Positions 3,106 to 39,365 of a DNA stretch of 39,910 nucleotides are shown here, piece after piece. The position numbers and the translations under genes are program-made. The DNA comes from an uncultured Alistipes sp. GTDB taxonomy: Bacteria; Bacteroidota; Bacteroidia; Bacteroidales; Rikenellaceae. Position 1 is the first letter of the stretch. Each line of letters opens with the position of its first letter. Below the pieces are notes generated by a model. That model saw only the letters and a program-made list of their open reading frames with translations. It made no database searches and had not been told where the DNA came from. The stretch covers positions 1 through 39,910 of the forward strand of contig CALUOX010000012.1 of NCBI GenBank assembly GCA_944322375.1, read 5' to 3'.

Positions 3106-3131
3106 TTGTTTCAATTCAGGTTATTTGTTAA

Positions 3132-5648: not shown

Positions 5649-5684
5649 GTATCACCGGAGTGTTCTTGCCGGGAGACATCCTGG

Positions 5685-5730
5685 CGGCTCTGTGCGGCTC
5701 TGTGCGGCTCTGTGCGGCTCTGGACGGCTC
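5685..5730. repeat. 10-bp tandem array, about 4.5 copies
   Basis: The unit TGTGCGGCTC is repeated at 5691, 5701 and 5711, preceded by a partial copy and followed by a variant at 5721 (TGGACGGCTC). It is unrelated in sequence to the neighbouring arrays. Confidence 0.85.
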
Positions 5731-5796
5731 CTGGCGCTCTCGTCCCGATGCGACTCTCCGGATGTCGGCGATGCCCCTTCCCGATATGCTCCGGTT

Positions 5797-5844
5797 GCGT
5801 TTTCTCGATCCGCTTCGGGTGCGCTTTCTCGACCCGGTTCGGTT
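5797..5844. repeat. 24-bp imperfect tandem duplication
   Basis: The segment 5797-5820 (starting GCGTTTTCTCGATCC) is repeated at 5821-5844 (starting GCGCTTTCTCGACCC) with about four substitutions. Noncoding context. Confidence 0.75.
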
Positions 5845-5935
5845 CTTCGGCTGTACGGCATGACCGGCGGAGTGGAAACCGGGTGCTGAGGTCCTCGATC
5901 TCTCCGAAGCGGTGGAGCAACCATTCGGAGCGGGC

Positions 5936-23594: not shown

Positions 23595-25205
23595 ATGACT
23601 AAACAATTCGATGTGATCATCATCGGTGGCGGCGCTACCGGAGCCGGTGTGGCGCGTGACTGTTCGTTGCGCGGCATCCGGGCCCTGCTGCTCGAACGCT
23701 CCGATATCGCTACCGGCGCTACGGGCCGTAATCACGGCCTGCTGCACAGCGGTGCCCGTTACGCCGTTACCGACCGCGAATCGGCCGAAGAGTGTATCAA
23801 GGAGAACATGATCCTCCGCCGGATCGCAAGCCACTGTGTCGATGAAACCGACGGACTGTTCCTCAGCCTGCCCGAAGACGGACTGGAATTCCAGTCGAAA
23901 TTCGTCGATGCGTGCCGCGCTGCGGGAATTCGTGCCGAGGTGATCGATCTCAAAGAGGCGCTGCGACTCGAACCGTCGGCCAATCCGGCCCTGATCGGTG
24001 CCGTGCGTGTCCCCGACGGCTCGGTAGATCCTTTCCGCCTGACCATGGCGAACATCATCGATGCGCGGGCGCACGGTGCCGAGATCCTGACTTATCATGA
24101 GGTGCTGGATTTCATCCGCGAGCAGAACCGTATCGAAGGGGTCGTGGTGCTCAACCGCAAGACGGGCGAGAAGTGCGAATATCGTGCTCCGGTTGTCGTC
24201 AATGCCTGCGGTATCTGGGGCCACGAGATCGCCCGCAAGGCCGGTGTAACGGTCAACATGCTTCCCGCCAAGGGGTCGCTGCTGATCTTCGGCCATCGCG
24301 TCAACAACATCGTATTGAATCGTTGCCGCAAGCCTGCCGATGCCGATATTCTGGTGCCGGGCGATACGATCTCGCTCATCGGCACCACGTCGAGCAAGGT
24401 GCCCTTCGACGAGGTGGACAACATGTATGTCACGGCCGATGAAGTCGATCTGCTGCTGCGCGAGGGTATGAAACTTGCGCCGTCGCTGGCTCATACGCGC
24501 ATCCTGCGTGCCTACGCCGGTGTGCGGCCGCTGGTGGCCTCGGACGACGATCCGAGCGGCCGCAGCGTGAGCCGTGGTATCGTGGTGCTCGACCACGCCA
24601 CGCGCGACGGGCTGGAGGGCTTCATTACCATTACGGGCGGCAAGTTGATGACCTATCGTCTGATGGCCGAATGGACGACCGATCTGGTCTGCAAGAAGCT
24701 CTCGCTCACGGCACGTTGTACGACCGCCGAGGAGAAGCTGCCCGGTTCGCGCGAACCCGAGGCCGAGGTGAGCCGGCGGATGATCTCCGTTCCGGTGGCA
24801 CAGCGCGAATCGTCGATCTATCGTCACGGCGACATGGCCGAAAAACTGCCGAACGGCGATGCGGCCCGGCGTTCGCTCGTCTGCGAATGCGAAGAGGTGT
24901 CGGTCGGCGAGGTGGAATATGCGCTCAAGGAGCTGGATGTGAACAATCTGGTCGATCTGCGCCGCCGCACCCGTGTGGGGATGGGTACGTGTCAGGGCGA
25001 GTTGTGCGCCTGCCGTGCCGCCGGCGTGATGGCCGGTGCAGGCAAGTATTGCGTGCAGCGCGCCAAGGAGGATCTGGTGCAGTTCCTCAACGAGCGCTGG
25101 AAGGGCATGGCTCCCGTAGCATGGGGCGACACGTTGCGTGAAAGTGAATTCACGATGTGGATCTATGCGGGGGTATGCGGTTTGTCGAATCAAAAAACGG
25201 AATAA
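23595..25205 (+). CDS. glpA: Anaerobic glycerol-3-phosphate dehydrogenase, subunit A (FAD)
   Basis: 536-residue catalytic flavoprotein that oxidises glycerol-3-phosphate to dihydroxyacetone phosphate as part of the membrane-associated GlpABC complex. The ATG at 23595 directly precedes the FAD-binding fold (FDVIIIGGGATGAGVARDC); a 32-codon upstream extension is unsupported. GRNHGLLHSGARYAV and TITGGKLMTYRLMAEW are typical of GlpA/GlpD. The C-terminal BFD-like [2Fe-2S] domain (about residues 428-475) has CECEEVSVGEV and MGTCQGELCACR. Length matches E. coli GlpA (542). glpB follows after four bases. Confidence 0.95.
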   Translation: MTKQFDVIIIGGGATGAGVARDCSLRGIRALLLERSDIATGATGRNHGLLHSGARYAVTDRESAEECIKENMILRRIASHCVDETDGLFLSLPEDGLEFQSKFVDACRAAGIRAEVIDLKEALRLEPSANPALIGAVRVPDGSVDPFRLTMANIIDARAHGAEILTYHEVLDFIREQNRIEGVVVLNRKTGEKCEYRAPVVVNACGIWGHEIARKAGVTVNMLPAKGSLLIFGHRVNNIVLNRCRKPADADILVPGDTISLIGTTSSKVPFDEVDNMYVTADEVDLLLREGMKLAPSLAHTRILRAYAGVRPLVASDDDPSGRSVSRGIVVLDHATRDGLEGFITITGGKLMTYRLMAEWTTDLVCKKLSLTARCTTAEEKLPGSREPEAEVSRRMISVPVAQRESSIYRHGDMAEKLPNGDAARRSLVCECEEVSVGEVEYALKELDVNNLVDLRRRTRVGMGTCQGELCACRAAGVMAGAGKYCVQRAKEDLVQFLNERWKGMAPVAWGDTLRESEFTMWIYAGVCGLSNQKTE

Positions 25206-25209
25206 CGAT

Positions 25210-26466
25210 ATGAAATTCGATAGTGTGATTGTCGGCGGCGGTCTTGCGGGACTCGTCTGCGGTATCCGGCTGGCGCGTGCCGGTCGGCGGTGCGCCATCG
25301 TTTCGTCGGGACAGAGCGCCCTGCACTTCTCGTCGGGGTCGTTCGACCTGCTCAACGCCCTGCCTGACGGTACGGCCGTGACGAATCCGGTCGAAGCGGT
25401 GGCGGAGACGATCCGTCAGGTTCCCGAACATCCGTATGCAAGGATCGGGGCGGAACGTTTCGCAACGCTGGCTGATGAGGCTGCGGCGCTGTTGTCCGAA
25501 ACGGGCGTGGCGACCGAAGGTGCGGCAACGCGGAACCATTACCGCGTCACGCCGATGGGCGAGTTGAAACCCACGTGGCTGACATTGAAAGGTTATGTGT
25601 ACAGCGCGGATGCCGCGACGCTGTCTTGGCGCAACGTGGCGCTTTTCAATGCGGAGGGATTCCTTGATTTCTATACGAAGTTCCTTGCCGACGGATTCCA
25701 GCGCATGGGGGTTGCGTGCGAGGTGCATACGTTCAACCTCCCGGCCATCGAGACGATCCGGAAGAATCCCAGCGAGATGCGTTCGGCGAATATCGCCCGC
25801 GTCTTCGATCGCGAAGAGAACCTGCAGGCTCTGGCGGAGATTCTCCGCAGGGAGACGGGTACGTGCGAAGCGGTCCTGCTGCCTGCCGTATTGGGTATCG
25901 ACCGGTACGATGCGGTGGAGCGGCTCTCGGAGGCGCTCGGGCGTCCGGTTGCCGTGGTGGCCACGCTGCCGCCCTCGGTTCCCGGTATCCAGACCCAGAT
26001 CCGGCTGCGTCGCTGTTTCCAGCAGGCAGGCGGCACCTACATGCTGGGTGATACGGCCGTGCGCTGCGAGATGCAGGGTGATCGCATTGCGGCACTTTAT
26101 ACGAACAATCACGGCGATATCGCCTTCGAGGCAAAGGATTACATCCTTGCTACGGGCAGCTATTTCAGTCAGGGACTCGTTGCCTCGATGGAGGGGGTAT
26201 GCGAACCGTTGTTCGGACTGGATGTGGCTTGTGCGGCCGATCGCGGCGCGTGGTATGACCGCGACCTCTTCGCGGCACAGCCCTTCGAAACGTTCGGCGT
26301 CAGGACCGACGATGCGCTGCATGGTCTGCGTGAAGGCCGTCCGGTGGAGAACCTGCGTGTCATCGGTGCCGGACTGGCCGGTTTCAACCCCGTGAAGGAG
26401 GGGTGCGGTGCCGGTGTGTCGATGCTGACGGCTCTCGAAGCCGCACGGCGCATCCTGGAGAAATAA
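25210..26466 (+). CDS. glpB: Anaerobic glycerol-3-phosphate dehydrogenase, subunit B
   Basis: 418 residues, matching E. coli GlpB (419). Second flavin-binding subunit, thought to pass electrons from GlpA towards GlpC. The N-terminal dinucleotide fold is MKFDSVIVGGGLAGLVCG, followed by HFSSGSFDLLNALPDG; the C-terminal GAGLAGFNPVKEGCGAGVS closes the flavin site. The ATG at 25210, four bases after the glpA stop, is chosen over an upstream frame that overlaps glpA by 68 bases. A 129-base spacer to glpC contains no recognised element. Confidence 0.95.
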   Translation: MKFDSVIVGGGLAGLVCGIRLARAGRRCAIVSSGQSALHFSSGSFDLLNALPDGTAVTNPVEAVAETIRQVPEHPYARIGAERFATLADEAAALLSETGVATEGAATRNHYRVTPMGELKPTWLTLKGYVYSADAATLSWRNVALFNAEGFLDFYTKFLADGFQRMGVACEVHTFNLPAIETIRKNPSEMRSANIARVFDREENLQALAEILRRETGTCEAVLLPAVLGIDRYDAVERLSEALGRPVAVVATLPPSVPGIQTQIRLRRCFQQAGGTYMLGDTAVRCEMQGDRIAALYTNNHGDIAFEAKDYILATGSYFSQGLVASMEGVCEPLFGLDVACAADRGAWYDRDLFAAQPFETFGVRTDDALHGLREGRPVENLRVIGAGLAGFNPVKEGCGAGVSMLTALEAARRILEK

Positions 26467-26595
26467 CCCGCAAGGGCCGTCGAAGCGTATCCCCGCAGCG
26501 TCCCGGTACGGACGGATGCCGGTCGCAAGACCGGAGCAGAGAGACGGACGGCGGAATGAACAATTGTAATATCGTAAACTCACATACAGCGAAGT

Positions 26596-27807
26596 ATGAT
26601 GACGGAACAAAGTGAAAATAATTTCGAACAGTGCATCAAGTGCACGATCTGTACGGTTTACTGCCCTGCGGCAGCCGCAAATCCGCTCTTCCCGGGGCCG
26701 AAACAGGCGGGACCCGACGGTGAGCGGCTGCGTCTGAAACGTCCGGAGTTCTACGACGAAGCGCTCAAGTATTGCCTCAACTGCAAACGCTGCGAGGTGG
26801 CCTGTCCGTCGAATGTCCGCATCGGCGACATCATCCAGTCGGCGCGTATCAAGTTCAGCAAGAAGAGACCCGGACTGCGGGAGTTCGTCCTGGCGAATAC
26901 CGATCTGGTGGGATCGCTCTCGACGCCGCTGGCTCCGGTGGTCAACGCGACGGTAGCGTGGAAACCCGTGAAGATGATCATGGACAAGGTGATGCGTATC
27001 GATCATCGGCGCACCTTCCCCAAATATGCCTTCGGAACCTTCGAAAGCTGGATGCGCAAGCAGCGTGCCGTGCAGGCCGCCTTCCCGAAGCAGGTAAGCT
27101 ACTTCCACGGCTGCTATGTCAACTACAACAATCCGCCGCTGGGCAAGGATTTCGTCAAGGTGATGAATGCCCTCGGCTACGGCGTGCAGCTGCTGAGCAA
27201 GGAGAAGTGCTGCGGCGTGGCACTGATCTCCAACGGTCTGATCGAACAGGCGAAACGTCAGGCAAAGGTCAACGTCGCCTCGATCCGGGAGGCCGTGATC
27301 GAGCGGAATATGCCGGTTCTGGGAACCTCCTCGACCTGCACCTTCACTCTGCGCGACGAATATCCCCATCTGCTGGATATCGATACGTCGGACGTGCGTG
27401 ACCATGTGGAACTGGCCACACGTTTCATCTATCGGCTGCTGTCGTCGGGCAAGGCTTCGCTGCGCTTCCGCAAGGATGCTCCGAAACTGCGCGTGGCCTA
27501 CCATACGCCCTGCCACATGGAGAAACTCGGCTGGTCGTACTATTCGATCGAGCTGTTGAAGATGATCCCTTCGGTGGAGTTGACCGTACTCGATTCGCAG
27601 TGCTGCGGTATTGCCGGTACGTACGGCTTCAAAAAGGAGAACTACGAAACTTCGCAGCGTATCGGCGAGGGACTGTTCCGTCAGATCGAGGCATCGGGCT
27701 GCGACCTGGTGGCTACCGATTGCGAAACCTGCAAGTGGCAGATCGAAATGTCCACGTCGAAACGTGTCGAGCATCCGTTGTCGATTCTTGCAGCGGTTCT
27801 GGAGTAG
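26596..27807 (+). CDS. glpC: Anaerobic glycerol-3-phosphate dehydrogenase, subunit C (iron-sulfur)
   Basis: 403 residues; the iron-sulfur subunit that anchors GlpAB to the membrane and delivers electrons to the quinone pool. Two [4Fe-4S] motifs lie near the N-terminus: CIKCTICTVYCP (C13, C16, C19, C23) and CLNCKRCEVACP (C60, C63, C66, C70). Two cysteine-rich CCG domains follow (FHGCYVNYNNPPLG with KCCGVAL; HTPCHMEKLG with SQCCGIAGTYGF). It starts ATGATG; the first ATG is used. No glpK, glpF or glpT is next to it in this window, so the source of glycerol-3-phosphate may be phosphodiesters. A strong terminator follows about 110 bases on. Confidence 0.95.
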   Translation: MMTEQSENNFEQCIKCTICTVYCPAAAANPLFPGPKQAGPDGERLRLKRPEFYDEALKYCLNCKRCEVACPSNVRIGDIIQSARIKFSKKRPGLREFVLANTDLVGSLSTPLAPVVNATVAWKPVKMIMDKVMRIDHRRTFPKYAFGTFESWMRKQRAVQAAFPKQVSYFHGCYVNYNNPPLGKDFVKVMNALGYGVQLLSKEKCCGVALISNGLIEQAKRQAKVNVASIREAVIERNMPVLGTSSTCTFTLRDEYPHLLDIDTSDVRDHVELATRFIYRLLSSGKASLRFRKDAPKLRVAYHTPCHMEKLGWSYYSIELLKMIPSVELTVLDSQCCGIAGTYGFKKENYETSQRIGEGLFRQIEASGCDLVATDCETCKWQIEMSTSKRVEHPLSILAAVLE

Positions 27808-27915
27808 CCGTCACAAGGGGAGGGGAGAAACGGCCGGGAAGTCGGAATGACTGCTTTTCCGTGATGCTCCCCGCGGCTCTTCGGGTGGTGATTCCGTAGA
27901 GATAAATATCCCGCA

Positions 27916-27957
27916 GCGGGGACGATTCATTGCGAATCGTCCCCGCTTTTCGTTTTG
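27916..27957 (+). terminator. Strong rho-independent terminator of glpABC
   Basis: A 13-bp perfect stem (27916-27928 with 27934-27946) and 5-base loop, then TTTTCGTTTTG. It lies in the 374-base gap 27808-28181 ahead of fecR. Confidence 0.92.
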
Positions 27958-28181: not shown

Positions 28182-29156
28182 ATGGAAGAGCCGAAGATCC
28201 GTGAACTGTTCGAAGGCGATGGAACGTCGAATGATGCACGGGAAGCAGGCCGGTGGCTTGCGGAACATGCCGGGAGCCGGGAGGCCGACGATTTGCTGTA
28301 TGCCGTATTGAAACGTACCGCAGCGGCAGATGCCGATACGGACGGTGCGTTCCGCCGGGTGTGTCGCCGTCTGGGGCTGCGTCCCCGCACGACGATATGG
28401 AGTACGGCCGTGCGCTGGTCGGTGCGTGTGGCCGCCTGTCTGTTTGTGCCGGTCGTTGCGGCGTTGTTTTATCTCTATGGCGAGGCGCAGCGCCCTTCGC
28501 AGTGGTTCGAAGCCTATGCCCCGTATGGAAAGACGCTGCGCGTGGAGCTGCCCGACCACTCGATCGTTCTCCTCAACTCCGGTTCCAAACTGATCTATCC
28601 CGACCGTTTCGCTCCCGATTGCCGGCAGGTATTCCTGGCCGGAGAGGGCTATGCCTCGATCGAAAAGGATCCGGAACGTCCCTTTGTCATGTCGGCCGGT
28701 GAGGTCGATGTGCGGGTGCTCGGCACGAAGTTCAACCTGAAGTCGTATGCCGAGGATTCCGAGGTCGAGGTAACCCTGCTCGAAGGCAGCGTGGAGATGG
28801 CTACGAAACTCGGCGCGAACGATCGCGTGGTGCGGCTTCGTCCGGGCGAACTCGTAAAACTCGACAAGGAGTCCGGAGCGACCGAAACGTTCGAGGTGCC
28901 GGTGTCCGATTACAAACCCGTGGTTCTTGGCGGCGGGCTCTTCTTCATGGACAAACGGTTCGATGAGATCGCCGCCTATTTCGAGAAGCGTTTCGACGTG
29001 AAGATCAATATCTATGATCCGGCGCTGGGCGAGAAACGTTTCATCGCCTCGTTCGTCAACGACGAATCACTCGACGAGATGCTGGCGACGTTCAATACCG
29101 ACGGAGAGATGCGCATCAACCGGAAAGGACGTGTCATCAATATTACCAAACGATAA
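28182..29156 (+). CDS. FecR-family anti-sigma factor
   Basis: 324-residue inner-membrane regulator that normally holds an ECF sigma factor in check until a TonB-dependent receptor signals. A cytoplasmic N-terminal region (1-77) is followed by a single membrane span (about 78-99, RVAACLFVPVVAALFYLYG), then the periplasmic FecR domain (YGKTLRVELPDHSIVLLNSGSKLIYP, GEVDVRVLGTKFNLKSYAEDSEVEVTLLEGSVEM) and a C-terminal DUF4974-like domain (FDEIAAYFEKRFDVKINIYD). It precedes an STN-domain SusC, the usual signalling partner. Its ECF sigma gene is not immediately upstream; the only one in the window is at 38679-39263 at the other end of the locus. Confidence 0.93.
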   Translation: MEEPKIRELFEGDGTSNDAREAGRWLAEHAGSREADDLLYAVLKRTAAADADTDGAFRRVCRRLGLRPRTTIWSTAVRWSVRVAACLFVPVVAALFYLYGEAQRPSQWFEAYAPYGKTLRVELPDHSIVLLNSGSKLIYPDRFAPDCRQVFLAGEGYASIEKDPERPFVMSAGEVDVRVLGTKFNLKSYAEDSEVEVTLLEGSVEMATKLGANDRVVRLRPGELVKLDKESGATETFEVPVSDYKPVVLGGGLFFMDKRFDEIAAYFEKRFDVKINIYDPALGEKRFIASFVNDESLDEMLATFNTDGEMRINRKGRVINITKR

Positions 29157-29208
29157 CCAACCAAAAAGCACTGAATATGAAGAGAAACGAATGATCCGAA
29201 CAAAAAAG

Positions 29209-29237
29209 GGACGGAGATATTCGCACTATCTCCGTCC
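29209..29237. other. 11-bp hairpin between fecR and susC
   Basis: GGACGGAGATA (29209-29219) and TATCTCCGTCC (29227-29237) with a 7-base loop. On the plus strand no T tract follows; on the minus strand the stem is followed by CTTTTTTG, so it would terminate antisense transcription. On the fecR-susC message it may act as a processing or stability element. Confidence 0.6.
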
Positions 29238-29296
29238 GGGCAGTTCCGGTCGAGGGCTGTCAGAATCCGAGCACAGAACCAAAACTTAACAAAAGT

Positions 29297-32200
29297 ATGA
29301 AAAAACCAACAAATTTACTAACGATTGCAGGGATAAAATCGATCTGCCTGAGTCTGTTCGCCCTTGCGGCAATGCTGTTTCCGGCGATCGCTTCTGCGGA
29401 GAACGTCACCCTGCACCTGAAAAACGTAACCGTAAAACAGGCCATCGTCGCACTGCAGCAGTCGCAATATTCATTGACGGTGGATGCCAGCCAGATCGAT
29501 ATGGACCGCAAGGTGAGCGTCGAAGCCGACGATCTGCCGATCGAGGAGGTCCTTGCACAGATCTTTTCCGGACAGGATGTCTCGTATGAAGTAAAGGGAT
29601 ACAGCATCATCGTTTCGCAGCCGCAGCGTACGGTCGCAGCGGCGCAACAGTCCGTATCGCGTGTCCTGAAGGGCGTGGTGCGGGACGACAAGGGCGCGAC
29701 GATCATCGGCGCCACGGTGGTCGTCAAGGGGACGACGACCGGCGTGACGACCGGCGTGGACGGCAGCTATTCGTTGCGCGTTACGACCCCGGATCCCGTT
29801 CTGCAGGTGTCGTTCGTGGGGTATGACATGGCCGAGATCGCCGTTGCTCCCACACAGACGATCATTGACGTGACGTTGCGCACGGCAGCCATCAATGTCG
29901 ATGAGGTCGTTGTCGTGGGTTACGGCACGCAGTCGCGGCATACGCTGACGACGGCCGTGTCGAAGATCGCCGGCGAGTCGATCTCCGAAGCTCCCGTCAC
30001 CTCGCTGGGCGACGCGCTCAAGGGGAAGGTTGCGGGCATGCAGATTTCGACGACCAACTCGCTGCCGGGTGAGCTTCCGGCGTTCCTCATTCGCGGCGGA
30101 TCGTCGATCAACCAGTCCAATGCCCCGATCGTGATCGTCGATGGGGTCACGCGCGAGATGACCGATCTCAACCCCAACGACATCGAATCGATCGAGGTGC
30201 TGAAAGATGCCGCTGCAGCGGGTATCTACGGTTCGCGGGCCTCGAACGGCGTGATTCTCGTCACGACGAAGAAAGGCACGATAGGCCGCGGCCCGGAGAT
30301 TGTCTTCGAGGCGCAGATCGGACACGAATCTCCCTCCCGGAAGTGGGATTTCATGAATGCCCGAGAGTTTCTGTCGTTCGTGCGTCCCGCCATTGCCGAG
30401 TCCTACAACGGAGCCTCGGTGCTGACGTCGGCGACGGCTGCCGGTACGGGCAACGGCGACAATTCGATCCATACGACCCGTTTCCTGGGTGACGGCGAGT
30501 CTGTTCCGGCCGGTTGGCAAAGCATGGTCGATCCGGTAACGGGCCGCACGCTGGTCTTCACCGATACCGACGAGCAGGGGCATTGGCTGCGCAACTCCAT
30601 GTGGGGCAAGGCCTATGTCGGGGTTTCGGGCGGCAACGAGAATGTGAAGTATGCCGCATCGGTGAGCTATGCCAAAGACGGCGGTGTGGTTGCCATGACC
30701 GACTATTCGGTCTTCACGATGCACGGAGCGGCGGATTTCCGGATCTCGAAGCGTTTGTCGGCCTCGACGACCTTCGACCTGTCGCGTTCGATCCGCCATC
30801 CGCTTATCGACAACTATTTCAACAGCCTCGGACGCGGTTTGCTGATCGCACCGACGCACCGCGACTACGATTCCGACGGCAACCTGCTGCGCGGCGGCGA
30901 CAACAAGGCCTGCCATACGGCGATGTGGTACGAGACCTACTACGACCGCGAGTGCGCGGACAAGCGGGCGACGGGTAACTTCAACCTCAAATGGGAGATT
31001 ATCGACGGCCTGACGGCTACGGCACAATACGCCATGCACGACCACAACTACAGGGGCAGTTACTACTATCACGGCAACTCGCTCGAACAGACCCGCAACA
31101 CGACCGAAACGCGTACCGAGACCCTGCGGGATCAGTTTACGACCTACCTGAATTTCGACCGCACCTTTGCGCGCCATCATCTGGGCGTGACGGCCGGATA
31201 CGACTACATGTCGCAGCGCTACCGCTACCTGACGGCCAACTCGACCTATGCGCCGTCGGACAAGGTGCCGGTGCTGCAGTCGGGCAGCAACTTCACGGCC
31301 AGCAACAAAGACACCAAGGAGGTGCTGATCTCCTATTTCGGGCGTGTGAACTACGACTATGACAAACGTTATATCTTTTCGTTCACGGCGCGTGCCGACG
31401 GATCGTCGAAATTCGCCAAGGGCAACAAGTGGGGCTTCTTCCCGGCCGGATCCGCCGCGTGGAACATCTCGGACGAAAAGTTCTGGGATGTGCGGCAGAT
31501 CAACAACCTCAAGCTGCGTCTGAGTTACGGTATGACGGGTAACAACGGTATCGGACTCTACGACGCCTACGGCGCCTACGATACGAGCAACAACTATGCG
31601 GGATACTCGACGACGATCGCTTCGGCGATGGCCAACAGCGCGCTGTGCTGGGAGACGACGACCCAGTTCGACGTCGGGTTCGACCTGGGCATGTTCAACA
31701 ACCGTCTGCGCATCGTGGCCGACTACTACAACAAACGCACCGACAACATGATCTTCTCGATTACGCTGCCCGATACCTCGGCCTATTCGTCGGTGAAGGC
31801 CAACGTCGGCAGCGCCCGTTTCTACGGCTTCGAGTTCGAACTGCACTCGGTCAACATCCAGAAGAAGAACTTCTCGTGGACGACTGATTTCACCTACTCC
31901 TACAACCGGAACAAGGTGCTGTCGCTGCCCGAGGAGTATGCCTATGCCGAGGTGGACGAATACGGCAACCCGACCGGAAAAACCGCCTGGCGGATCGGCG
32001 GTTACACGATGTCGGAGAGCGGTTACCGTTTCGGCGGCACGGCCGTCGGCGAGCCGCTGGGCCGCATCTACGGCTACAAGATCGCCGGCATCATCCAGAC
32101 GCAGGCCGAAGCCGATGCGGCGCTTTACGACAGCCAGTCGCACGGCTACCGCCGTTCGGACGGCATGTCGGAGAATACCGATGCCAAATACAAGGGCCGC

Positions 32201-32851
32201 AAGGATATCGGCGACTACGAATGGTGCAACCGCATCGGGTCGGCGCGTCTGGCCGACGGCCGCGAACAGATTTCGACGGAAGACTTTTTCTATCTCGGAT
32301 CGGTGATTCCCCATTCGGTGGGCGGACTGGAGAATACCTTCACTTACAAGAACATCTCGTTGTCGATCTATCTCGACTATGCGTTGGGACACTCGATCTA
32401 CAACTACATGAAATCGCGCGTATTCCAGAACGGAATGGGCAGCAACAATGCCAATATCGACAAGATGGTCTATGACTGCTGGCGCTATCCGGGCGATACG
32501 GAGGCGAAATATGCGCGCTTCTATGCCAACGACCCCGACTACGGCAACCGCAACTTCTCCCGCGTTTCGAATTTCAACGTCGAGCGGGCCGACTATCTCT
32601 GCATCCGCGACGTGACGCTCAGCTACGATCTCCCGTCGCGCTGGATCCAGAAACTGGGCATGAAGAAACTCACGGTAAGCGTTTCGGGCAATACGCTCTA
32701 TTACTTCACGAAGGTTTCGGGCTCGATCTGCCCCGAAAGCGGCGCAGGTGCCGACGGCAACCTCTACAAGAGCACATCGACGGGCGATGCGACGGGCAAT
32801 ATCGCTCCGAATGCCCGCAAGGTGCTCTTCTCGCTCAGGTGCGTATTCTGA
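29297..32851 (+). CDS. SusC/RagA-type TonB-dependent receptor with STN signalling domain
   Basis: 1,184-residue outer-membrane transporter. The order is: signal peptide (1-34, ends AIASA), STN/secretin-N domain (about 37-108, LHLKNVTVKQAIVALQQ) that contacts FecR, carboxypeptidase-D-like regulatory domain (about 123-195, LKGVVRDDKGATIIGATV), TonB-box-like DEVVVVGYGTQ, plug (ALKGKVAGMQIS, FLIRGGSSIN, DIESIEVLKDAAAAGIYGSRASNGVILVTTKKG), then a beta-barrel ending in a C-terminal aromatic (LRCVF). It imports an oligomer or small ligand captured by the SusD partner. The substrate is not identifiable; downstream phosphodiesterases suggest a phosphodiester-containing compound. susD follows after 39 bases. 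Confidence 0.96.
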   Translation: MKKPTNLLTIAGIKSICLSLFALAAMLFPAIASAENVTLHLKNVTVKQAIVALQQSQYSLTVDASQIDMDRKVSVEADDLPIEEVLAQIFSGQDVSYEVKGYSIIVSQPQRTVAAAQQSVSRVLKGVVRDDKGATIIGATVVVKGTTTGVTTGVDGSYSLRVTTPDPVLQVSFVGYDMAEIAVAPTQTIIDVTLRTAAINVDEVVVVGYGTQSRHTLTTAVSKIAGESISEAPVTSLGDALKGKVAGMQISTTNSLPGELPAFLIRGGSSINQSNAPIVIVDGVTREMTDLNPNDIESIEVLKDAAAAGIYGSRASNGVILVTTKKGTIGRGPEIVFEAQIGHESPSRKWDFMNAREFLSFVRPAIAESYNGASVLTSATAAGTGNGDNSIHTTRFLGDGESVPAGWQSMVDPVTGRTLVFTDTDEQGHWLRNSMWGKAYVGVSGGNENVKYAASVSYAKDGGVVAMTDYSVFTMHGAADFRISKRLSASTTFDLSRSIRHPLIDNYFNSLGRGLLIAPTHRDYDSDGNLLRGGDNKACHTAMWYETYYDRECADKRATGNFNLKWEIIDGLTATAQYAMHDHNYRGSYYYHGNSLEQTRNTTETRTETLRDQFTTYLNFDRTFARHHLGVTAGYDYMSQRYRYLTANSTYAPSDKVPVLQSGSNFTASNKDTKEVLISYFGRVNYDYDKRYIFSFTARADGSSKFAKGNKWGFFPAGSAAWNISDEKFWDVRQINNLKLRLSYGMTGNNGIGLYDAYGAYDTSNNYAGYSTTIASAMANSALCWETTTQFDVGFDLGMFNNRLRIVADYYNKRTDNMIFSITLPDTSAYSSVKANVGSARFYGFEFELHSVNIQKKNFSWTTDFTYSYNRNKVLSLPEEYAYAEVDEYGNPTGKTAWRIGGYTMSESGYRFGGTAVGEPLGRIYGYKIAGIIQTQAEADAALYDSQSHGYRRSDGMSENTDAKYKGRKDIGDYEWCNRIGSARLADGREQISTEDFFYLGSVIPHSVGGLENTFTYKNISLSIYLDYALGHSIYNYMKSRVFQNGMGSNNANIDKMVYDCWRYPGDTEAKYARFYANDPDYGNRNFSRVSNFNVERADYLCIRDVTLSYDLPSRWIQKLGMKKLTVSVSGNTLYYFTKVSGSICPESGAGADGNLYKSTSTGDATGNIAPNARKVLFSLRCVF

Positions 32852-32890
32852 TGATCATCCCATTTTTTTCAACATACAGAGTCAACGATT

Positions 32891-34387
32891 ATGAAACGAT
32901 ATAGACTGATGTTCCTGACAGCGGCCTGTGCCGCACTCTTCGCCACCTCCTGTCACGGCGATCTGGACATCATACAGGACAACCAACTTTCGGCAAGCAA
33001 CATGTGGACCGAGTCGAGCGACGTCACCACTTCGGCCTACGGCATCTACTATCTGATGCGTTCGAACTTCGTGCAGGACAAGATCAACGTCTTCTACTGG
33101 GGCGAAGCGCGCGTGGGGGAATACATGTGGGGTGCAGGTTCGTGGCGCACGGGACACGACAACGACATGTACGGCGTGCAGAACAGCACGATGAACGATT
33201 CGAACACCTCGACGGGCTGGACGCGGCTCTATACGGCGATCAATGCGGCCAATGCCGTGTTGAAGTATGCGCCGCAGGTCCCGATGACCGATACCGACCG
33301 CAACTGGGCGATCGGCCAGGCGGCTTTCGCCCGTGCCTATCTCTACTTCTGGGCTGCGCGCCTGTGGGGCGATGTGCCCTTGCTGCTGAATCCGATCGAA
33401 TCGGTCGAGATGGAGGAGTGCTATCCCGAACGTTCGCCCAAGGCGCTCGTCTATGAGCAGATCGGAAAGGATATAGAGACGGCCGTAACCTATGTATCCG
33501 GTACGGAGAAATATGTCGCGACGCCCGATGCCGCGAACATGCTCAAGGCCGAGTATGCGCTGTGGATGTACTCGACGCAGGCGGGCGGCGATTCCTACCT
33601 TACGATGGCCGAGGAGGCGCTGCAGGCCATCGGCATCTCGTCGTCGCGCCTGTTGGACGACTATGCGTCGATCTTCTCGGTGGACAACAAGTGCAACGCC
33701 GAGGTGATTTTCGCACTGAACAACAACCAGACCGAAAAGCTCACGGGGGGTTACTACTGGTATTACTACTGGCCGAGCAGCAATGTCGCTCCCGCCTACC
33801 AGATGAATCCGGTGCCGATCTACACGACGCAGTGGTGGAACTATTCCGATACCTTCATCGAGGTGCTCAAGCAGAGCAAGGCCCGCAACAACGACCGCCG
33901 TGTGGACTGCAACTACCTCGAAGGTCCCTACGGCTCTTCGTCCGAAGGGGTGATGAATATCATATCGTGCCCCAACAAGTTCAAGGGCGACTGCTCGACG
34001 TCGATGATGATCCTCGATTGCGACCTGCTCTATTACCGCTATGCGCAGGCGGTCATGATGGATGCTGAACTGAAGTACTACAAACGGGATTATGAAGGGG
34101 CCCTCAAATCGCTCAACCTCATAGCCAAACGTGCATACGGCGTGGAGAACTTCTACACCGATGCGTCGAAAGAGGCGGTGCTGCAGGCGCTGTGCGACGA
34201 GTCGTTCCTCGAATTCCCCTGCGAGGGTGTCATCTGGTGGACGCTCATCCGTCTGGACAAGATCTGGGACTACAATCCTTCGCTGGCCGAACGGCGTGCG
34301 CAGAACCCCAACATCCTGCTGTGGCCCATTTCGGCATCGGCACGCAACAAGAACAGCAAGCTGCGTCAGACCGAGGGCTGGAGCTGA
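32891..34387 (+). CDS. SusD/RagB-type outer-membrane lipoprotein
   Basis: 498-residue surface ligand-binding lipoprotein that forms the lid of the SusC transporter. The signal peptide ends with the lipobox FATSC (C21). SusD features are the N-terminal helical repeats (TGWTRLYTAINAANAVL, IGQAAFARAYLYFWAARLWGDVPLLL), the YERSPKA-like region and a C-terminal FEFPCEGVIWWTLIR-type segment. The aromatic-rich stretch GGYYWYYYWPSSN may line the binding site. It is slightly shorter than glycan-type SusDs. It lies directly after susC and 40 bases before the next lipoprotein gene. Confidence 0.94.
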   Translation: MKRYRLMFLTAACAALFATSCHGDLDIIQDNQLSASNMWTESSDVTTSAYGIYYLMRSNFVQDKINVFYWGEARVGEYMWGAGSWRTGHDNDMYGVQNSTMNDSNTSTGWTRLYTAINAANAVLKYAPQVPMTDTDRNWAIGQAAFARAYLYFWAARLWGDVPLLLNPIESVEMEECYPERSPKALVYEQIGKDIETAVTYVSGTEKYVATPDAANMLKAEYALWMYSTQAGGDSYLTMAEEALQAIGISSSRLLDDYASIFSVDNKCNAEVIFALNNNQTEKLTGGYYWYYYWPSSNVAPAYQMNPVPIYTTQWWNYSDTFIEVLKQSKARNNDRRVDCNYLEGPYGSSSEGVMNIISCPNKFKGDCSTSMMILDCDLLYYRYAQAVMMDAELKYYKRDYEGALKSLNLIAKRAYGVENFYTDASKEAVLQALCDESFLEFPCEGVIWWTLIRLDKIWDYNPSLAERRAQNPNILLWPISASARNKNSKLRQTEGWS

Positions 34388-34427
34388 TGGATTGCGATCG
34401 AGTATGAATCACAAAAACGAGAAATCT

Positions 34428-36494
34428 ATGAAAACAAGAATATTGAGCATTTTTTCGGTTGCGGCACTGCTCTTTGCGGGGTGCTACGAGGATGCCGGAG
34501 AGACGGGCATCGACGAATCGACCCGCATCTCGCTGTCGCCGTCTGAGATCAGCTTTACGCCCGACGGCACCACGACGGACGGCGAGGTCTCCTATGTGGG
34601 TGTGGTGCAGATCATGCCTTTTGCCAAGAGCAACTTCACCTGGACGGTGCAGGGCGATGTGGAGTGGGCTACGGTGACCGAGACGACGGTCGATGAGACT
34701 TTCGAGGAGACCTGGACGGATGGCGTGACGACGACGGCGCACAAGGCTGTCGAGATCATGGTAACGCCCAATACGGAGTATCGTCGGTCGGGAACGCTGA
34801 CCGTGACGGCGCAGGACGGCACCGTGCAGACCTTCCCGATCGAGCAGACGGGACTCAAGGCCGATGCGGAGGTGACCTGCGAGGCGGCCGAGAGCGGGCT
34901 GGAGTTCGCGTCAGCCGGCGAGAGCCTGACGGTTCTCTATACGACCAACATGGGCGATGTTTACGATTACAGCGCAACCTATGACGGGGAGAGCTCCGGG
35001 GAGTGGCTTTCGTGGAGCGACGAGGGTGCGGGCCAGGTGGTGCTGACCGCATCGGAGTGGACCTCGAAGGATCAGGACCGCACGGCGGTCTTCACGATTC
35101 ATGTCGGCACACCGGATACGAGCGAGGCTTCGGTCGAGATCGCCGTCCGGCAGCTGCGCGTGGATGACTACTACTACCTCTACGGCGTTTCGGTTCCGCG
35201 CTATGCGACGATCGACCTGTCGGCGCAGATGAACAAGAAGGAGCAGGATATCTATGCGTTCGACACCTACTTTGCGGCGGAGGGCAATAATCCCGTCCTG
35301 CTCAACAAGAACAGCCGGACACTGGCTTATCCGTACTATGCGTTGGCGGCGGGCGGAACAATCGCAACGATTGCGTCGGAAGCCGACGCACTGCCGGCAG
35401 GCCCGCAGATCGACATCGACGGCATGCGGACCCTGACGGTGGACTTCAAGCAGATGACATGGTCGTGGGAACGCATTACAACGGTCAACTGTATGCCCGA
35501 CGATGAGTTGAGCAATTACAAGACCAAGGCTTTCGTGGCCCGTGACGGAAGCATGAAGACTTGGATGGTCGAGTTCGTGCGTTGGGACGGTGGTGACATC
35601 TATCCGAAACTGGGTTCGCTGATGGTGCCCTCCGCTACGGGGGCCAATGCCGACGGATCGGGTGGATATGCAGCCGGCAGTTTCCCGACATCGTGGAACG
35701 ATCCGAATATGAATCCGAACTATGAAACGACCGAGATCGGCGGTAATTTGGTCGGTACGAGTGAACATGGTCGAATCTATCACTTCAACGAAGTTGTTAC
35801 GGGCAATCCGCGCTTTGGTATCGGCTATGCGCGTTACGAGGCACTGCCTGACAATTGGATGGAGGGCAAGACGATCGTCGATGCCATTGGCCGGAGCTTC
35901 ACGGTTGAGTATATCAACCATTCTGCGGCCGGAACATTTACGGGAGACAATGCTGCCGATGAAAAGGCACACCCCATGTTGACCATGCAGGTGCAGGGGA
36001 TCTGTCCTTACGGCTGGCATGTGGCTAATGCATCTGACTGGCTCGATCTGGCTTATGCGGCAAGTCAGGCTTCGGCAGGACATACCTTCCCCGTTAACGA
36101 GAGCCGAGTTACCTACAAGCAGTTCACAACGGTATCGGGTTCGACGTCGCAGGTGGACAATCCCGATTCTCCTCGCGGCATCGGTAACTTCGCTCCATGG
36201 CTGAGAAATTCAGGCTGGGGATCAAATGCCTATGTATCGGACGGTGCCGATGAATTCGGTTTCAACTACTATCCGCTCGGATTCCGTTACATGACGCAGG
36301 GATACCAGTGCGCAGGATCGCGTTGCCAGACTTTCGTGCCGTTGTGTTACAATAATACGAAAAATCCCGGCACGGCCCTGTTCCGTATCAATGTAATCAT
36401 CAACAACAAGGTTACTTCCGCCGAGATGACAAATCTCGATAATGGACAGGCGATCTTCCCGTTCCGTTGCGTGAAGAACTACGATGTAGAGTAG
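34428..36494 (+). CDS. Surface lipoprotein with BACON-like domains and a Fibrobacter-paralogue C-terminus
   Basis: 688 residues. The ATG at 34428 opens a lipoprotein signal (MKTRILSIFSVAALLFAGC, C19); an ATG at 34404 is possible. Two Ig-like BACON-type domains follow (about 30-150, ISLSPSEISFTPDG to FPIEQTG; about 150-255, ending VEIAVRQL). A middle region of unknown fold leads to a C-terminal domain (about 524-688) with CPYGWHVANASDWLDLAY, DEFGFNYYPLGFRY and a final FPFRCVKN, the pattern of the Fibrobacter succinogenes major paralogous domain. Its place after susCD is that of a surface ligand-binding protein; no catalytic motif is visible. Confidence 0.82.
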   Translation: MKTRILSIFSVAALLFAGCYEDAGETGIDESTRISLSPSEISFTPDGTTTDGEVSYVGVVQIMPFAKSNFTWTVQGDVEWATVTETTVDETFEETWTDGVTTTAHKAVEIMVTPNTEYRRSGTLTVTAQDGTVQTFPIEQTGLKADAEVTCEAAESGLEFASAGESLTVLYTTNMGDVYDYSATYDGESSGEWLSWSDEGAGQVVLTASEWTSKDQDRTAVFTIHVGTPDTSEASVEIAVRQLRVDDYYYLYGVSVPRYATIDLSAQMNKKEQDIYAFDTYFAAEGNNPVLLNKNSRTLAYPYYALAAGGTIATIASEADALPAGPQIDIDGMRTLTVDFKQMTWSWERITTVNCMPDDELSNYKTKAFVARDGSMKTWMVEFVRWDGGDIYPKLGSLMVPSATGANADGSGGYAAGSFPTSWNDPNMNPNYETTEIGGNLVGTSEHGRIYHFNEVVTGNPRFGIGYARYEALPDNWMEGKTIVDAIGRSFTVEYINHSAAGTFTGDNAADEKAHPMLTMQVQGICPYGWHVANASDWLDLAYAASQASAGHTFPVNESRVTYKQFTTVSGSTSQVDNPDSPRGIGNFAPWLRNSGWGSNAYVSDGADEFGFNYYPLGFRYMTQGYQCAGSRCQTFVPLCYNNTKNPGTALFRINVIINNKVTSAEMTNLDNGQAIFPFRCVKNYDVE

Positions 36495-36515
36495 ATGAAA
36501 TTGTGGTCGCTATGG

Positions 36516-36551
36516 CGGGAGACGGAGTTTGGGGAGGGGCTTCGTCTCCCG
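36516..36551 (+). other. Hairpin after the surface lipoprotein gene
   Basis: CGGGAGACG (36516-36524) pairs with CGTCTCCCG (36543-36551), 9 bp with an 18-base loop, 20 bases after the stop codon. There is no T tract, so read-through into the next gene is likely. The remainder of this 213-base gap shows nothing further. Confidence 0.5.
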
Positions 36552-36707
36552 TGCAGCGGCCGATGGTCGGACGGAAAGATGCGGTTGCGGCGACGGCGAT
36601 ATTTCGTGGCGTGATGTGCGGCGGGTGCTCTCTTCTCAGCCCGGCATCGGGTGCTGCGGCGACTGTTTTCCGAAGTGGAATATACAAAAGATTTACTGTT
36701 TAATACC

Positions 36708-37616
36708 ATGAAAATGAAATGTGTACGCCTGCTGGCACTCGGTGCGATGGCGCTCGTGGCGGCCTGTTCGGAGGATCCGCGCGGTTTTGATACGGCACCC
36801 GATACGCCCTCGGGTGGCGGGGAGGATTCCTATGCCTCGCCGACGAACCCCTTGGGGAGTATCGTCGTCGCCCATCGCGGCGGCGCTGCGGAGTCGGGAC
36901 TGCCCGACAATTCGCTGGCCGGATTGAAGTATGCCCTCGACCAGATGGTCTATGCCGTCGAGTGCGATATCTATGCTACGGCCGACAACCGGGTCATCGT
37001 GGCCCATGCTACGGACGGCTGCCTGATCAACGGCCTGAAGCCCTGGGAACATACCTATGCCGAGCTTTGCGCTGCCGGAACCCTCTCGAACGGGGAACAG
37101 ATTCCCCTGCTGGAGACCTTTATCGAAGAGACGATGAAGGCCGGAACGTCGAAACTGTGGCTCGATGTCAAGAACATCCTTGTCAATGGCTCTTCGAGCG
37201 GTTATACGGGTTTTTCGGCCCGCTCCTGCCAGTTGGCCTGCAAGATCATCGAACAGATGAAGGCCCGCAACTTCGTGGAGTTTATCGTCACGAGCAACAG
37301 GACGGTCTGGACGCTCAGCTATTCGGCTACGCAGCAGATCGGCGTACATGCCGGTTGGGCGGCCTATCTTTCGCCGGCGGAGTACGGCACCTACATCGAT
37401 CCTTGGGCCAATATCGATGCCTCGAACATCTACATCAACGGGAAACCCGGTACGGGCCAATGGGGAATCGACGACTATGTCTCCGCCGGGGTGGACATCA
37501 GCGTATTCTCGATCGATACGGATGCCGACATCGCATATTATGCCGCTTACAAGGATAAATTGTATGCCATCACGACAAACTATCCGAAAAAACTGATCGG
37601 CACATTCAAAAAATGA
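36708..37616 (+). CDS. Glycerophosphodiester phosphodiesterase-family lipoprotein
   Basis: 302 residues. The signal peptide ends at a lipobox (MALVAAC, C20), followed by an acidic Gly/Pro/Ser linker, so it is anchored at the cell surface or in the periplasm. GDPD catalytic features are AHRGG (H56, R57), PDNSLAGLKYAL in place of the usual PENT, VECDIYATAD (metal ligands E85, D87) and VIVAHATDG (second catalytic H100; the usual Asp after His is Ala). The core residues are kept but the sequence is diverged from the GDPD at 2278-3105, so the substrate may differ. It is the first enzyme after the susCD and lipoprotein block. Confidence 0.85.
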   Translation: MKMKCVRLLALGAMALVAACSEDPRGFDTAPDTPSGGGEDSYASPTNPLGSIVVAHRGGAAESGLPDNSLAGLKYALDQMVYAVECDIYATADNRVIVAHATDGCLINGLKPWEHTYAELCAAGTLSNGEQIPLLETFIEETMKAGTSKLWLDVKNILVNGSSSGYTGFSARSCQLACKIIEQMKARNFVEFIVTSNRTVWTLSYSATQQIGVHAGWAAYLSPAEYGTYIDPWANIDASNIYINGKPGTGQWGIDDYVSAGVDISVFSIDTDADIAYYAAYKDKLYAITTNYPKKLIGTFKK

Positions 37617-37650
37617 TCTCCGGAAATGGAGGGTTTCTGAACGAAAATCG

Positions 37651-37658
37651 TATATTTG
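37651..37658 (+). promoter_or_regulatory. Candidate -7 box of the S1/P1-type gene
   Basis: TATATTTG matches TAnnTTTG and lies 82 bases before the ATG at 37740, 35 bases after the GDPD lipoprotein stop. No exact TTTG at -33; TTTC at 37634 is too close. The gene could have its own start of transcription as well as read-through. Confidence 0.45.
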
Positions 37659-37739
37659 CAGGGAAGCGGTACCGGCAGCGGGTCGAACGGCTGTTTGCAT
37701 CCCGTTGCCGGTTTCGGCTGCACCAAAACAATCAACCGA

Positions 37740-38567
37740 ATGAAGAGACTGACATTTATTCTGACGCTCGCGGCCGTGTGTTCGTTGCAGGGCGTCTCCG
37801 CATGGGGCCGTCTGGGCCATGCTACGGTCGCCTACATGGCCGAACAACACCTTACGGAACAGGCCAGGGCCAATCTGGACAAGTGGCTCGACGGCAAATC
37901 GATCGTCTATTATGCGTCGTGGCTCGATGATTACAAGCCTCAGATGCTCGTCGATCTGGGCTATGATCCCGACGGTGACGACCGGATGCATCAGCTGCCG
38001 CACACCTTCTCGGTGGATGAGAATGGCGATGTGGTTCCCGGCAACCACTGGCCCGGTACAAAGAAGTATCTCGCCAACTGCATCCACTACATCGAGGAGT
38101 CGGCCGAAATGTTGAAGAACCACATCGCGGAGCTGGACGACTCGACGCGGCTGGCGCGGATTCAGCTGATTGTCCATTGTGTGGGTGACATGCATTGTCC
38201 GGGCCATATCCGCTATCCGGGCAATACGACGATCGGGTATTACAAGGTGGTCCTTTTCGGCGAGGAGATCCGTTACCATACGATCTGGGACACGAATATC
38301 CTGCAGCGTCCTCATCCCTGGAGTTTCTCCGATCTGGCTTGGCTGCTCGACCGCTATACGGCTGAAGAGCAGGCCGAGATTACCTCCGGAACACCGTATG
38401 ACTGGGGCCGCGAGTCTGCCGCGGCGTCGCGCTGCATCTACGATGTCAAGGCGGGCGACAAGCTCGACAACAACTTTATCAAGACCTACAAGCCGCTGGC
38501 CGAGACACAGCTGGCCAAAGCGGGCTATCGCCTGGCGGCGGTTCTGAATGCAATTTTCGACAAGTAG
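37740..38567 (+). CDS. Secreted S1/P1 nuclease / phospholipase-C-superfamily zinc enzyme
   Basis: 275 residues. Signal peptidase cleavage after VSA (residue 21) exposes Trp22, the N-terminal metal ligand of this superfamily. Further predicted Zn ligands are H27 (WGRLGH), D63 (ASWLDDYK), H84 or H88 (MHQLPHTF), H146, D150 and H156 (VHCVGDMHCPGH), and H180 and D184 (YHTIWDT). S1/P1 enzymes cleave single-stranded nucleic acids and 3'-nucleotides; the same fold serves zinc phospholipases C. The usual GDIHQPLH is changed to GDMHCPGH, and the ASWAD motif to ASWLD, so specificity may be altered. It sits next to a GDPD lipoprotein; a shared phosphodiester substrate is inferred. A strong terminator follows. 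Confidence 0.88.
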   Translation: MKRLTFILTLAAVCSLQGVSAWGRLGHATVAYMAEQHLTEQARANLDKWLDGKSIVYYASWLDDYKPQMLVDLGYDPDGDDRMHQLPHTFSVDENGDVVPGNHWPGTKKYLANCIHYIEESAEMLKNHIAELDDSTRLARIQLIVHCVGDMHCPGHIRYPGNTTIGYYKVVLFGEEIRYHTIWDTNILQRPHPWSFSDLAWLLDRYTAEEQAEITSGTPYDWGRESAAASRCIYDVKAGDKLDNNFIKTYKPLAETQLAKAGYRLAAVLNAIFDK

Positions 38568-38588
38568 GTTTCTGCAACACAATTTTAT

Positions 38589-38627
38589 GGCGGAGCAACT
38601 CGAGGGTTGTTCCGCCTTTTTCATTTT
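38589..38627 (+). terminator. Rho-independent terminator ending the SusCD-phosphodiesterase locus
   Basis: An 11-bp stem (38589-38599 with 38606-38616, one G-T pair) with a 6-base loop, followed by TTTTTCATTTT. It lies 22 bases after the S1/P1-type stop codon and separates it from the convergent sigma gene. Confidence 0.92.
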
Positions 38628-38678
38628 CCTGTCCGGTGGGGCCGGGAGGGACTTCCGCCGTTCCATTGCCCGCGTGAT

Positions 38679-39263
38679 TCAGTGCAGCAGCAGAAAGGCA
38701 AGCAGTATAAACTGGTAATCTTTCAGATGAATGCGCAGCTCGCGCAGCGCCAGTTCGAGATGTTTGTCAACGGTGCGGACCGACAGCCCGAGGCGTTCCG
38801 CGATCTCCTGACGGGAGAGGTTCTCGTCGCGGCTCATGACGAAGATGCGTTGTCGTTGCGGCGGCATGCCGGCGACCCGTCTGGCTATGGTCTGACGCAT
38901 CGTTTCAGCGTCGATCTCCAGCGTGGATTCCTCGCCGGCCTCCATTTTCTCCGTGATGGGCTGTTGCACCGTTCCGATGTTGTACATGCGGCGGAAGTGG
39001 TCGTAGATGCGGTGTTTGGTCATCGTGAAGAGCAGGTTGTAGATCGACCGGTGCTCGTCGAGCCTTTCGCGGTAGATCCACAGCCGCATGAAGATCTCCT
39101 GCATGATGTCTTCTGCCGCGGCGCGTTCCTTGACAAACCCCTGTGTGAATGCGAGAAAGAGGTTGTAGTATTTATGAAAAAGCAACTCATAGCTCTTCAG
39201 ATCATTCCGTTTGAGGCGGATGACCAGCTCGCGGTCGGAGATATCGGGCAGAGGCTTCTTCAT
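38679..39263 (-). CDS. ECF-type RNA polymerase sigma factor
   Basis: 194 residues. The ATG at 39263 (MKKPLPDISDRELVIRLKRND) is preferred; an extension to 39290 lacks family similarity. Region 2 is seen as LFHKYYNLFLAFTQGFVKERAAAEDIMQEIFMRLWIYR and region 4 as RQRIFVMSRDENLSRQEIAERLGLSVRTVDKHLELALREL. This is the Bacteroidota FecI/EcfO-like group that pairs with FecR anti-sigma factors. The only FecR in the window is at 28182-29156, 9.5 kb away, with this gene convergent to that locus. A consensus promoter lies upstream at the edge of a large repeat array. Confidence 0.94.
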   Translation of the reverse strand: MKKPLPDISDRELVIRLKRNDLKSYELLFHKYYNLFLAFTQGFVKERAAAEDIMQEIFMRLWIYRERLDEHRSIYNLLFTMTKHRIYDHFRRMYNIGTVQQPITEKMEAGEESTLEIDAETMRQTIARRVAGMPPQRQRIFVMSRDENLSRQEIAERLGLSVRTVDKHLELALRELRIHLKDYQFILLAFLLLH

Positions 39264-39334
39264 TGTTGTTCGGCTCCAGTACCCTCTCACAATCCGGTGT
39301 TCCGGTCAGAGGTGGAGACGCTGAATCCATTACC

Positions 39335-39365
39335 CAAAGTTAACAAATTCTTTTTGAACTTCAAA
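39335..39365 (-). promoter_or_regulatory. Consensus promoter of the ECF sigma gene, partly inside the repeat array
   Basis: Minus strand TTTG (39365-39362), exactly 19 bases, TAACTTTG (39342-39335): a full match to the Bacteroides -33/-7 consensus. Start near 39328, leader about 65 bases. The -33 box falls inside the terminal unit of the 96-bp repeat array, in the repeated phrase GGAATATTTGAAGTTC. Confidence 0.85.

Follow-up and report, generated by a model that had tools for sequence, protein, structure and literature searches.

A conserved SusD-lipoprotein-GDPD unit in Alistipes and its relatives, with a possible role in the acquisition of polyol phosphodiesters

Bases 1–39910 of contig 12 from an uncultured Alistipes genome (GCA_944322375.1; 2.5 Mb, 139 contigs), hereafter called the window, contain a SusCD locus in which the genes of the SusC/SusD pair are followed by those of a lipoprotein with BACON and FISUMP domains and a lipoprotein of the GDPD family. 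Our analysis revealed that SusD, the BACON/FISUMP lipoprotein and the GDPD lipoprotein form a conserved unit encoded on one and the same strand. Gene content, synteny, catalytic residues, neighboring genes and the FecR/STN-type regulation present in many copies suggest that the locus is, on a modest balance of probability, a Sus-type outer-membrane system for acquiring polyol phosphodiesters, of the glycerol-phosphate and/or mannitol-phosphate type. SusCD loci are usually taken as glycan loci, and a conserved, regulated unit centered on a predicted surface phosphodiesterase points beyond the framework of carbohydrate-active enzymes (CAZymes): gut Bacteroidales may have a food source outside it, and polyol phosphodiesters can be offered as a substrate class for SusCD loci that lack CAZymes.

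Synteny of the unit and the GDPD subfamily

Pfam and TIGR matches bear out the gene content and order (FecR, STN-SusC, SusD, lipoprotein, GDPD, S1/P1) read by a first-pass annotation, which had been made from the DNA letters alone. The genes of the locus are:

28182..29156, plus strand: FecR-type anti-sigma regulator (Pfam FecR 54.5 bits, FecR_C 44.8 bits)
29297..32851, plus strand: SusC/RagA TonB-dependent importer with an N-terminal STN signaling domain (TIGR04056 778.6 bits, STN 37.7 bits)
32891..34387, plus strand: SusD-family substrate-binding lipoprotein (Pfam SusD-like_3, SusD_RagB)
about 34425..36494, plus strand: lipoprotein with two BACON (Ig-like) stretches and a FISUMP domain (Pfam)
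36708..37616, plus strand: GDPD-family lipoprotein of a divergent subfamily (Pfam GDPD, alignment, AlphaFold model, catalytic residues)
37740..38567, plus strand: S1/P1-nuclease family enzyme, predicted to be secreted, outside the conserved unit (Pfam S1-P1_nuclease 111.5 bits)
38679..39263 (or to 39290), minus strand: ECF sigma factor of the Bacteroidetes family (TIGR02985 146.6 bits)

The GDPD alignment A1 (15 rows), run on a named genome collection, returned 61 loci, nearly all from Bacteroidales metagenome-assembled genomes (MAGs), many of which are named for animal gut or rumen samples. According to a synteny check based on hidden Markov models and a count of the triplets, SusD, lipoprotein and GDPD follow each other on one strand in 29 of the 61 loci, from 27 genomes besides that of the window, a recurrence that exceeds chance. 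The GDPD part of the synteny that the first-pass annotation had proposed to check is therefore conserved with SusCD in 27 other genomes. The lipoprotein stands between SusD and GDPD in all 29 loci, two of which (L087 and L092) have an extra gene between lipoprotein and GDPD; in several relatives its place is taken by a short form of ~145 aa, with a BACON domain in the one that was scanned. The triplet is also present in another family of the order (L126 in genome G488). The distances between SusD proteins correlate with those between GDPD proteins (r = 0.87 over 26 loci, with none of 2000 permutations as high), in a comparison that still includes the species phylogeny. These 26 of the 29 loci are those left by length filters, which removed L120, where GDPD is split over two frames; L064, from the sister species, had been left out beforehand. 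The latter, an uncultured Alistipes MAG, is the closest named relative (GDPD 97%).

In the remaining 32 loci GDPD occurs in many proteins of ~640 aa, or of ~1150 aa with GDPD at the C-terminus, and in some short pieces. The ~640-aa protein of L052 adjoins recJ. L115 (the same place as L061) encodes two FISUMP-GDPD fusions. As a side observation, two neighboring proteins at 7682–13511 of L061, from the same genus, each combine GDPD and FISUMP parts in a single chain, and in several Alistipes the ~640-aa GDPD protein has an MtlD-family gene at a distance of a few kb (L052 3920–10559 and similar). The AlphaFold model of the BACON/FISUMP lipoprotein from the window (pLDDT 77) retrieved Ig-like and similar repeats with low TM-scores, and no catalytic fold appeared among the matches listed.

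The GDPD of the unit is only just recognized by its Pfam profile (25.4 bits, cut-off 23.6, profile positions 1–94 of 244). A profile built from the subfamily hits the GDPD structure 3no3 at 8.3e-23 and, at 2.5e-28, the part of 7ww4 that resembles a GDPD; for 7ww4, the best PDB match, a literature search found no paper. The AlphaFold model (pLDDT 82) matches GDPD structures, including B. subtilis GlpQ (5t9b), as well as phage central-spike domains. His56, Arg57, Glu85, Asp87, His100, Asp153 and Lys155 are kept in 87–89 of 90 rows of an alignment in which some loci are represented more than once; the fold, the two catalytic histidines and the acidic metal ligands place the protein structurally in the GDPD family (PF03009). 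The signature comprises PDNS, H-A after the second histidine, D-x-K for E-x-K, and TNYP. Judged from the alignment, the protein keeps the catalytic residues yet forms a separate subfamily. At residue 101 the H-A of the subfamily corresponds to H-D in the P. furiosus GDPD 7e0v. The same change from D to A is seen in 7e2a, an entry titled a mutant, with which 7e2b is identical in sequence. GlpQ of B. subtilis cleaves teichoic acid. It has the GDPD fold and the catalytic core in common with the protein described here, which differs in PDNS for PENT, HA for HD, DxK for ExK and TNYP and in being a Bacteroidales lipoprotein tied to SusCD. In the window protein the lipobox is followed by acidic residues (CSEDP, read by eye), which suggests that the enzyme is displayed on the cell surface.

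Polyol-phosphate genes near the units

Several families recur as neighbors of the unit: GlpT/UhpT-type antiporters in seven loci, mannitol-1-phosphate 5-dehydrogenase (MtlD) in six, a glycerol-1-phosphate-dehydrogenase-like protein (G1PDH-like) in four and glpA in three (window included). For a control we used gene positions in 28 whole genomes and compared the surroundings of 31 SusCD-GDPD units with those of 149 other SusD genes; the latter come from 13 of the genomes, most of which had been chosen because a linkage was seen in them. The control genes are 150 of the 221 found, minus one that lies less than 15 kb from a GDPD unit; contig 36 of genome G535, which breaks at that point and does not show adjacency to SusCD, was left out of the units. 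Within 10 kb, MtlD was found at 6 of 31 units versus 0 of 149 other SusD genes (p = 1.7e-5), the GlpT family at 7 versus 4 (p = 4.8e-4), the G1PDH-like protein at 4 versus 2 (p = 0.0086), and any of MtlD, GlpT, G1PDH-like or glpA at 11 versus 6 (p = 4.4e-6). The counts were made with score limits (GlpT at least 288 bits, 83 of 115 rows; MtlD at least 492 bits, 27 of 35 rows) and without them, and at 10 kb they are identical. With all rows, at 15 kb the GlpT association weakens to 7 of 31 versus 7 of 149 (p = 0.0034), and that of any of the four stands at 12 of 31 versus 9 of 149 (p = 9.1e-6).

The first-pass annotation had tied the locus to glpABC, which lies upstream of it. Further features of the window that bear on this point or are taken up below are:

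23595..27807, plus strand: glpABC, anaerobic glycerol-3-phosphate dehydrogenase (equivalog models, each over its cut-off)
27915..27947, plus strand: terminator-like hairpin in the glpC/fecR interval (14-pair stem and T-rich tail)
2278..3114, minus strand: canonical GDPD with a signal peptide read by eye (GDPD 117.3 bits)
37651..37658, plus strand: TATATTTG, match to the Bacteroidetes -7 promoter motif 5' of the S1/P1 gene
38589..38616, plus strand: terminator-like hairpin 3' of the S1/P1 gene (12 pairs)

Given the hairpin between glpC and fecR, glpABC is probably transcribed separately from the locus, and their co-transcription is unlikely. In the sister species (L129) the order glpA-glpB-glpC-FecR-SusC is as in the window, in UBA1745 (L076/L130) SusC follows glpC on the same strand after a gap of 191 bases, and in another Alistipes (L102) glpA and FecR are arranged divergently. 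The proposed tie is thus borne out as far as the shared order in the sister and the presence of glpA by the unit in two further genomes, and is weak in the comparison with other SusD genes: glpA lies within 10 kb of 2 of 31 units versus 1 of 149 (p = 0.077), and within 15 kb of 3 versus 2 (p = 0.037). The sister does not enter these counts, as its glpA and its GDPD stand on either side of a contig break. The gene-order evidence for glpABC is suggestive, not strong, and it is possible that glpABC is a downstream pathway of the locus. The absence of an adjacent glpT and the presence of a further GDPD, both noted earlier, proved correct: the four GlpT-family matches of this genome are on contigs 51, 35, 36 and 30 and none is on contig 12, and the canonical GDPD at 2278–3114 is a clear family member.

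Two further arrangements bring these genes together. In L120/L135 one strand encodes SusC, SusD, a BACON protein, GDPD (split over two frames), a second BACON protein, a G1PDH-like protein, GlpT, a second GDPD that is 63% identical to the canonical one of the window, and the IIC component of a mannitol phosphotransferase system (PTS), with a gene for PTS enzyme I ~3 kb beyond, after three other genes. In the genome of the window, contig 2 (L131, 8810–16035 of G000:C2) encodes on one strand a mannitol PTS, enzyme I, an alpha/beta hydrolase, MtlD and a canonical GDPD, and contig 51 (L132, 405–11849 of G000:C51) encodes a SusD and two related lipoproteins, with a G1PDH-like-GlpT pair some kb away. 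The first of these lipoproteins, the one scanned, is a calcineurin-type phosphoesterase; contig 51 perhaps carries a second phosphoesterase-SusCD locus.

That genes for glycerol phosphate occur together with those for mannitol(-phosphate) suggests a substrate of the polyol-phosphate kind that goes beyond the head groups of phospholipids. Candidate substrates of the locus are a teichoic-acid-like polymer, deacylated phospholipid head groups and a polyol-phosphate-decorated glycan. In the mechanism that we envisage, the surface GDPD would cut a phosphodiester polymer or head group held by SusD and the BACON/FISUMP protein, SusC would import the cleaved pieces, and the STN-FecR-ECF relay would sense passage of the substrate. 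Secreted canonical GDPDs could finish the cleavage, GlpT-type antiporters or the mannitol PTS could bring the products inward, and GlpABC, the G1PDH-like enzyme or MtlD would oxidize them. More specifically, and as a tentative proposal, the food could be the glycerol- or mannitol-phosphate teichoic-acid-like chains of Gram-positive neighbors, cut by the surface GDPD and imported by SusCD, with glycerol-1-/3-phosphate and mannitol(-phosphate) entering glycolysis via G1P dehydrogenase, GlpABC, the mannitol PTS and MtlD.

Several observations weigh against a polyol-phosphodiester system. The unit has a patchy distribution: among 121 genomes sampled from the genus, our own included, 13 match GDPD at E <= 1e-40, and at the level of the order 3 of 393 sampled genomes, again with our own, hold the subfamily at E <= 1e-30 (at 1e-16 there are 45 of 393, and all but our own genome and G488 have 119 bits or less). 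Of the 31 units, 19 have none of the above genes within 15 kb, and MtlD-GlpT and G1PDH-GlpT pairs occur away from SusCD-GDPD units too. The p-values are optimistic, since the families, glpA apart, were chosen after their recurrence had been seen and many of the species are related; the glpA link, the sole one named in advance, is weak. Finally, the predicted surface location of GDPD depends on a lipobox and acidic residues read by eye.

Known systems and alternative interpretations

Starch utilization systems and glycan polysaccharide utilization loci (PULs) consist of SusC, SusD, an extra lipoprotein and a surface enzyme, in some cases under FecR/ECF control. The locus described here resembles them in SusC directly followed by a SusD-family lipoprotein (TIGR04056, Pfam), which marks it as a SusCD acquisition system, in the extra lipoprotein and in the predicted surface enzyme. 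It differs in that Pfam found no glycoside hydrolase or polysaccharide lyase in the eight window proteins scanned (the seven of 28182–39290 and the GDPD at 2278); the lack of a glycoside hydrolase agrees with the first-pass annotation, and in the CAZy sense, which asks for at least one CAZyme in the locus, these proteins do not make up a glycan PUL. It can nevertheless be imagined that the sugar backbone of a capsule, wall or host polysaccharide is the actual food, broken down by enzymes whose genes lie at other places, and that GDPD only removes its glycerol- or polyol-phosphate decorations. Oligosaccharides are the normal cargo of SusCD systems, BACON domains often occur next to glycan enzymes, the SusD of the window has a weak match to the NanU model (139 bits, cut-off 425), and a neighbor in L076 contains a CHB_HEX_C_1 domain, named from hexosaminidases. 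We regard this explanation as unlikely, given that no glycoside hydrolase was matched in the eight window proteins or in the scanned minority of relatives' neighbors, and that polyol-phosphate genes recur by the units.

The closest known system is that of the phosphate utilization system (PUS) clusters of Flavobacterium, as far as these are described in the main text of the report of Lidbury et al. (PMC8115612). In F. johnsoniae a SusCD-like pair (PusCD) occurs with phosphodiesterases or phosphatases and is induced under phosphate depletion. Lidbury et al. propose that phosphodiesters, lipid head groups and nucleic acids among them, are scavenged in this way, and state that gut isolates were not scrutinized. 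The likeness lies in a SusCD pair beside a phosphodiesterase or phosphatase rather than carbohydrate enzymes, which applies to the window by family membership only. The PUS enzymes are of calcineurin type, PI-PLC type and PhoA, and the term GDPD is absent from that main text, while our locus combines GDPD with a BACON/FISUMP lipoprotein and FecR/ECF, and some of the units have polyol-phosphate dehydrogenases nearby. In gut Bacteroidales, B. thetaiotaomicron has a TonB receptor and SusD (BT4724-BT4725) close to BT4727 of the GDPD family, a likeness at the level of family annotation; in the portion of PMC10434189 covered here these genes are listed only among those lowered in an iron study, with no function assigned to them. 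As they are already annotated, a SusCD pair near a GDPD-family gene is not in itself new. A literature search joining SusCD and GDPD, which covered its sources in part, did not meet the conserved subfamily, the BACON/FISUMP partner or the polyol-phosphate context, and a description elsewhere is possible.

As to regulation, FecR is present in 18 of the 29 unit loci, with an ECF gene beside it in 13 of the 18; in at least L073, L076 and L118 the position immediately before SusC is taken by other genes, and several contigs end short of it. The ECF sigma factor of the window is possibly the partner of FecR, though it stands at the far end of the locus. This gene was unnamed in the first-pass annotation, whose interval ends inside it. 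The regulation thus appears to be of the ECF/FecR/STN kind, a substrate-sensing type. It speaks against phosphate scavenging after the Flavobacterium model, in which phosphate would be the gain, phospholipid head groups the substrate and the polyols incidental, and the recurrence by the loci of dehydrogenases for the carbon part also tells against it. This alternative draws on the phosphodiesterases and phosphate response of the PusCD clusters described in PMC8115612 and on calcineurin-type phosphoesterases beside SusD genes in L132 and L069; we consider it rather improbable.

The S1/P1 gene and other features of the window

The gene that follows GDPD encodes a member of the S1/P1 nuclease family (PF02265, 111.5 bits; match to 8qjl with E 1.9e-14), whose signal peptide ends before a tryptophan, as is usual in this family. 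Apart from the window, only the sister species (G067/G518) has it next to GDPD. The family is present in 23 of the 28 unit-bearing genomes, and the sole further match that lies less than 10 kb from a SusCD-GDPD unit is that of G530, on the opposite strand at a distance of ~4 kb. The TATATTTG box is located 81 bases upstream of the S1/P1 start; this motif has 12 matches in the window versus 6.6 expected by chance, with as many in 6 of 100 shuffles. Terminator-like hairpins were found at 13 sites, against 10.3 in shuffles.

From SusC to S1/P1 a block of ~9 kb (29.4–38.5 kb) is 96–100% identical in DNA to the sister in most 500-base bins, with dips to 87 and 94% at 36.5–37.5 kb, at the start of GDPD, and the flanking bins, which include FecR and the ECF gene, are 69–95% identical. 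Judged from these identities, 29400–38567 looks like a recently exchanged cassette, and S1/P1, being inside it, may have travelled with SusCD-GDPD. In spite of the shared block, we reject S1/P1 as an integral second enzyme on the synteny, and the gene is most likely a passenger. Of the two-enzyme system claimed by the first-pass annotation, the GDPD half is retained in 29 of 61 loci and the S1/P1 half is not supported, given its restriction to the window and its sister, its position in G530 and the promoter-like motif that precedes it; the broader notion of a phosphodiester-scavenging Sus system survives as a SusCD unit around a phosphodiesterase-family enzyme, with polyol-phosphate neighbors in part of the cases and without the share of S1/P1. 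The same annotation had considered that GDPD and S1/P1 jointly scavenge nucleic acids or phosphodiesters in general. S1/P1 directly downstream, within the near-identical block common to the sister, speaks for this possibility, which is nonetheless weakened by the lack of conservation beside GDPD in the other 26 genomes (the G530 case excepted), by the promoter-like motif of its own and by the occurrence of the family elsewhere in most of these genomes, so that we regard it as highly improbable.

The genome of the window has 10 GDPD-family and 5 S1/P1-family matches in total. Six diverged tandem copies of a ~95-base unit occupy the right-hand end (39346–39910) of the window, beside the ECF gene. 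On the minus strand at 4017–7492, an anaerobic sulfatase-maturase gene (strong match) is found near a sulfatase-like gene that scores below the cut-off.

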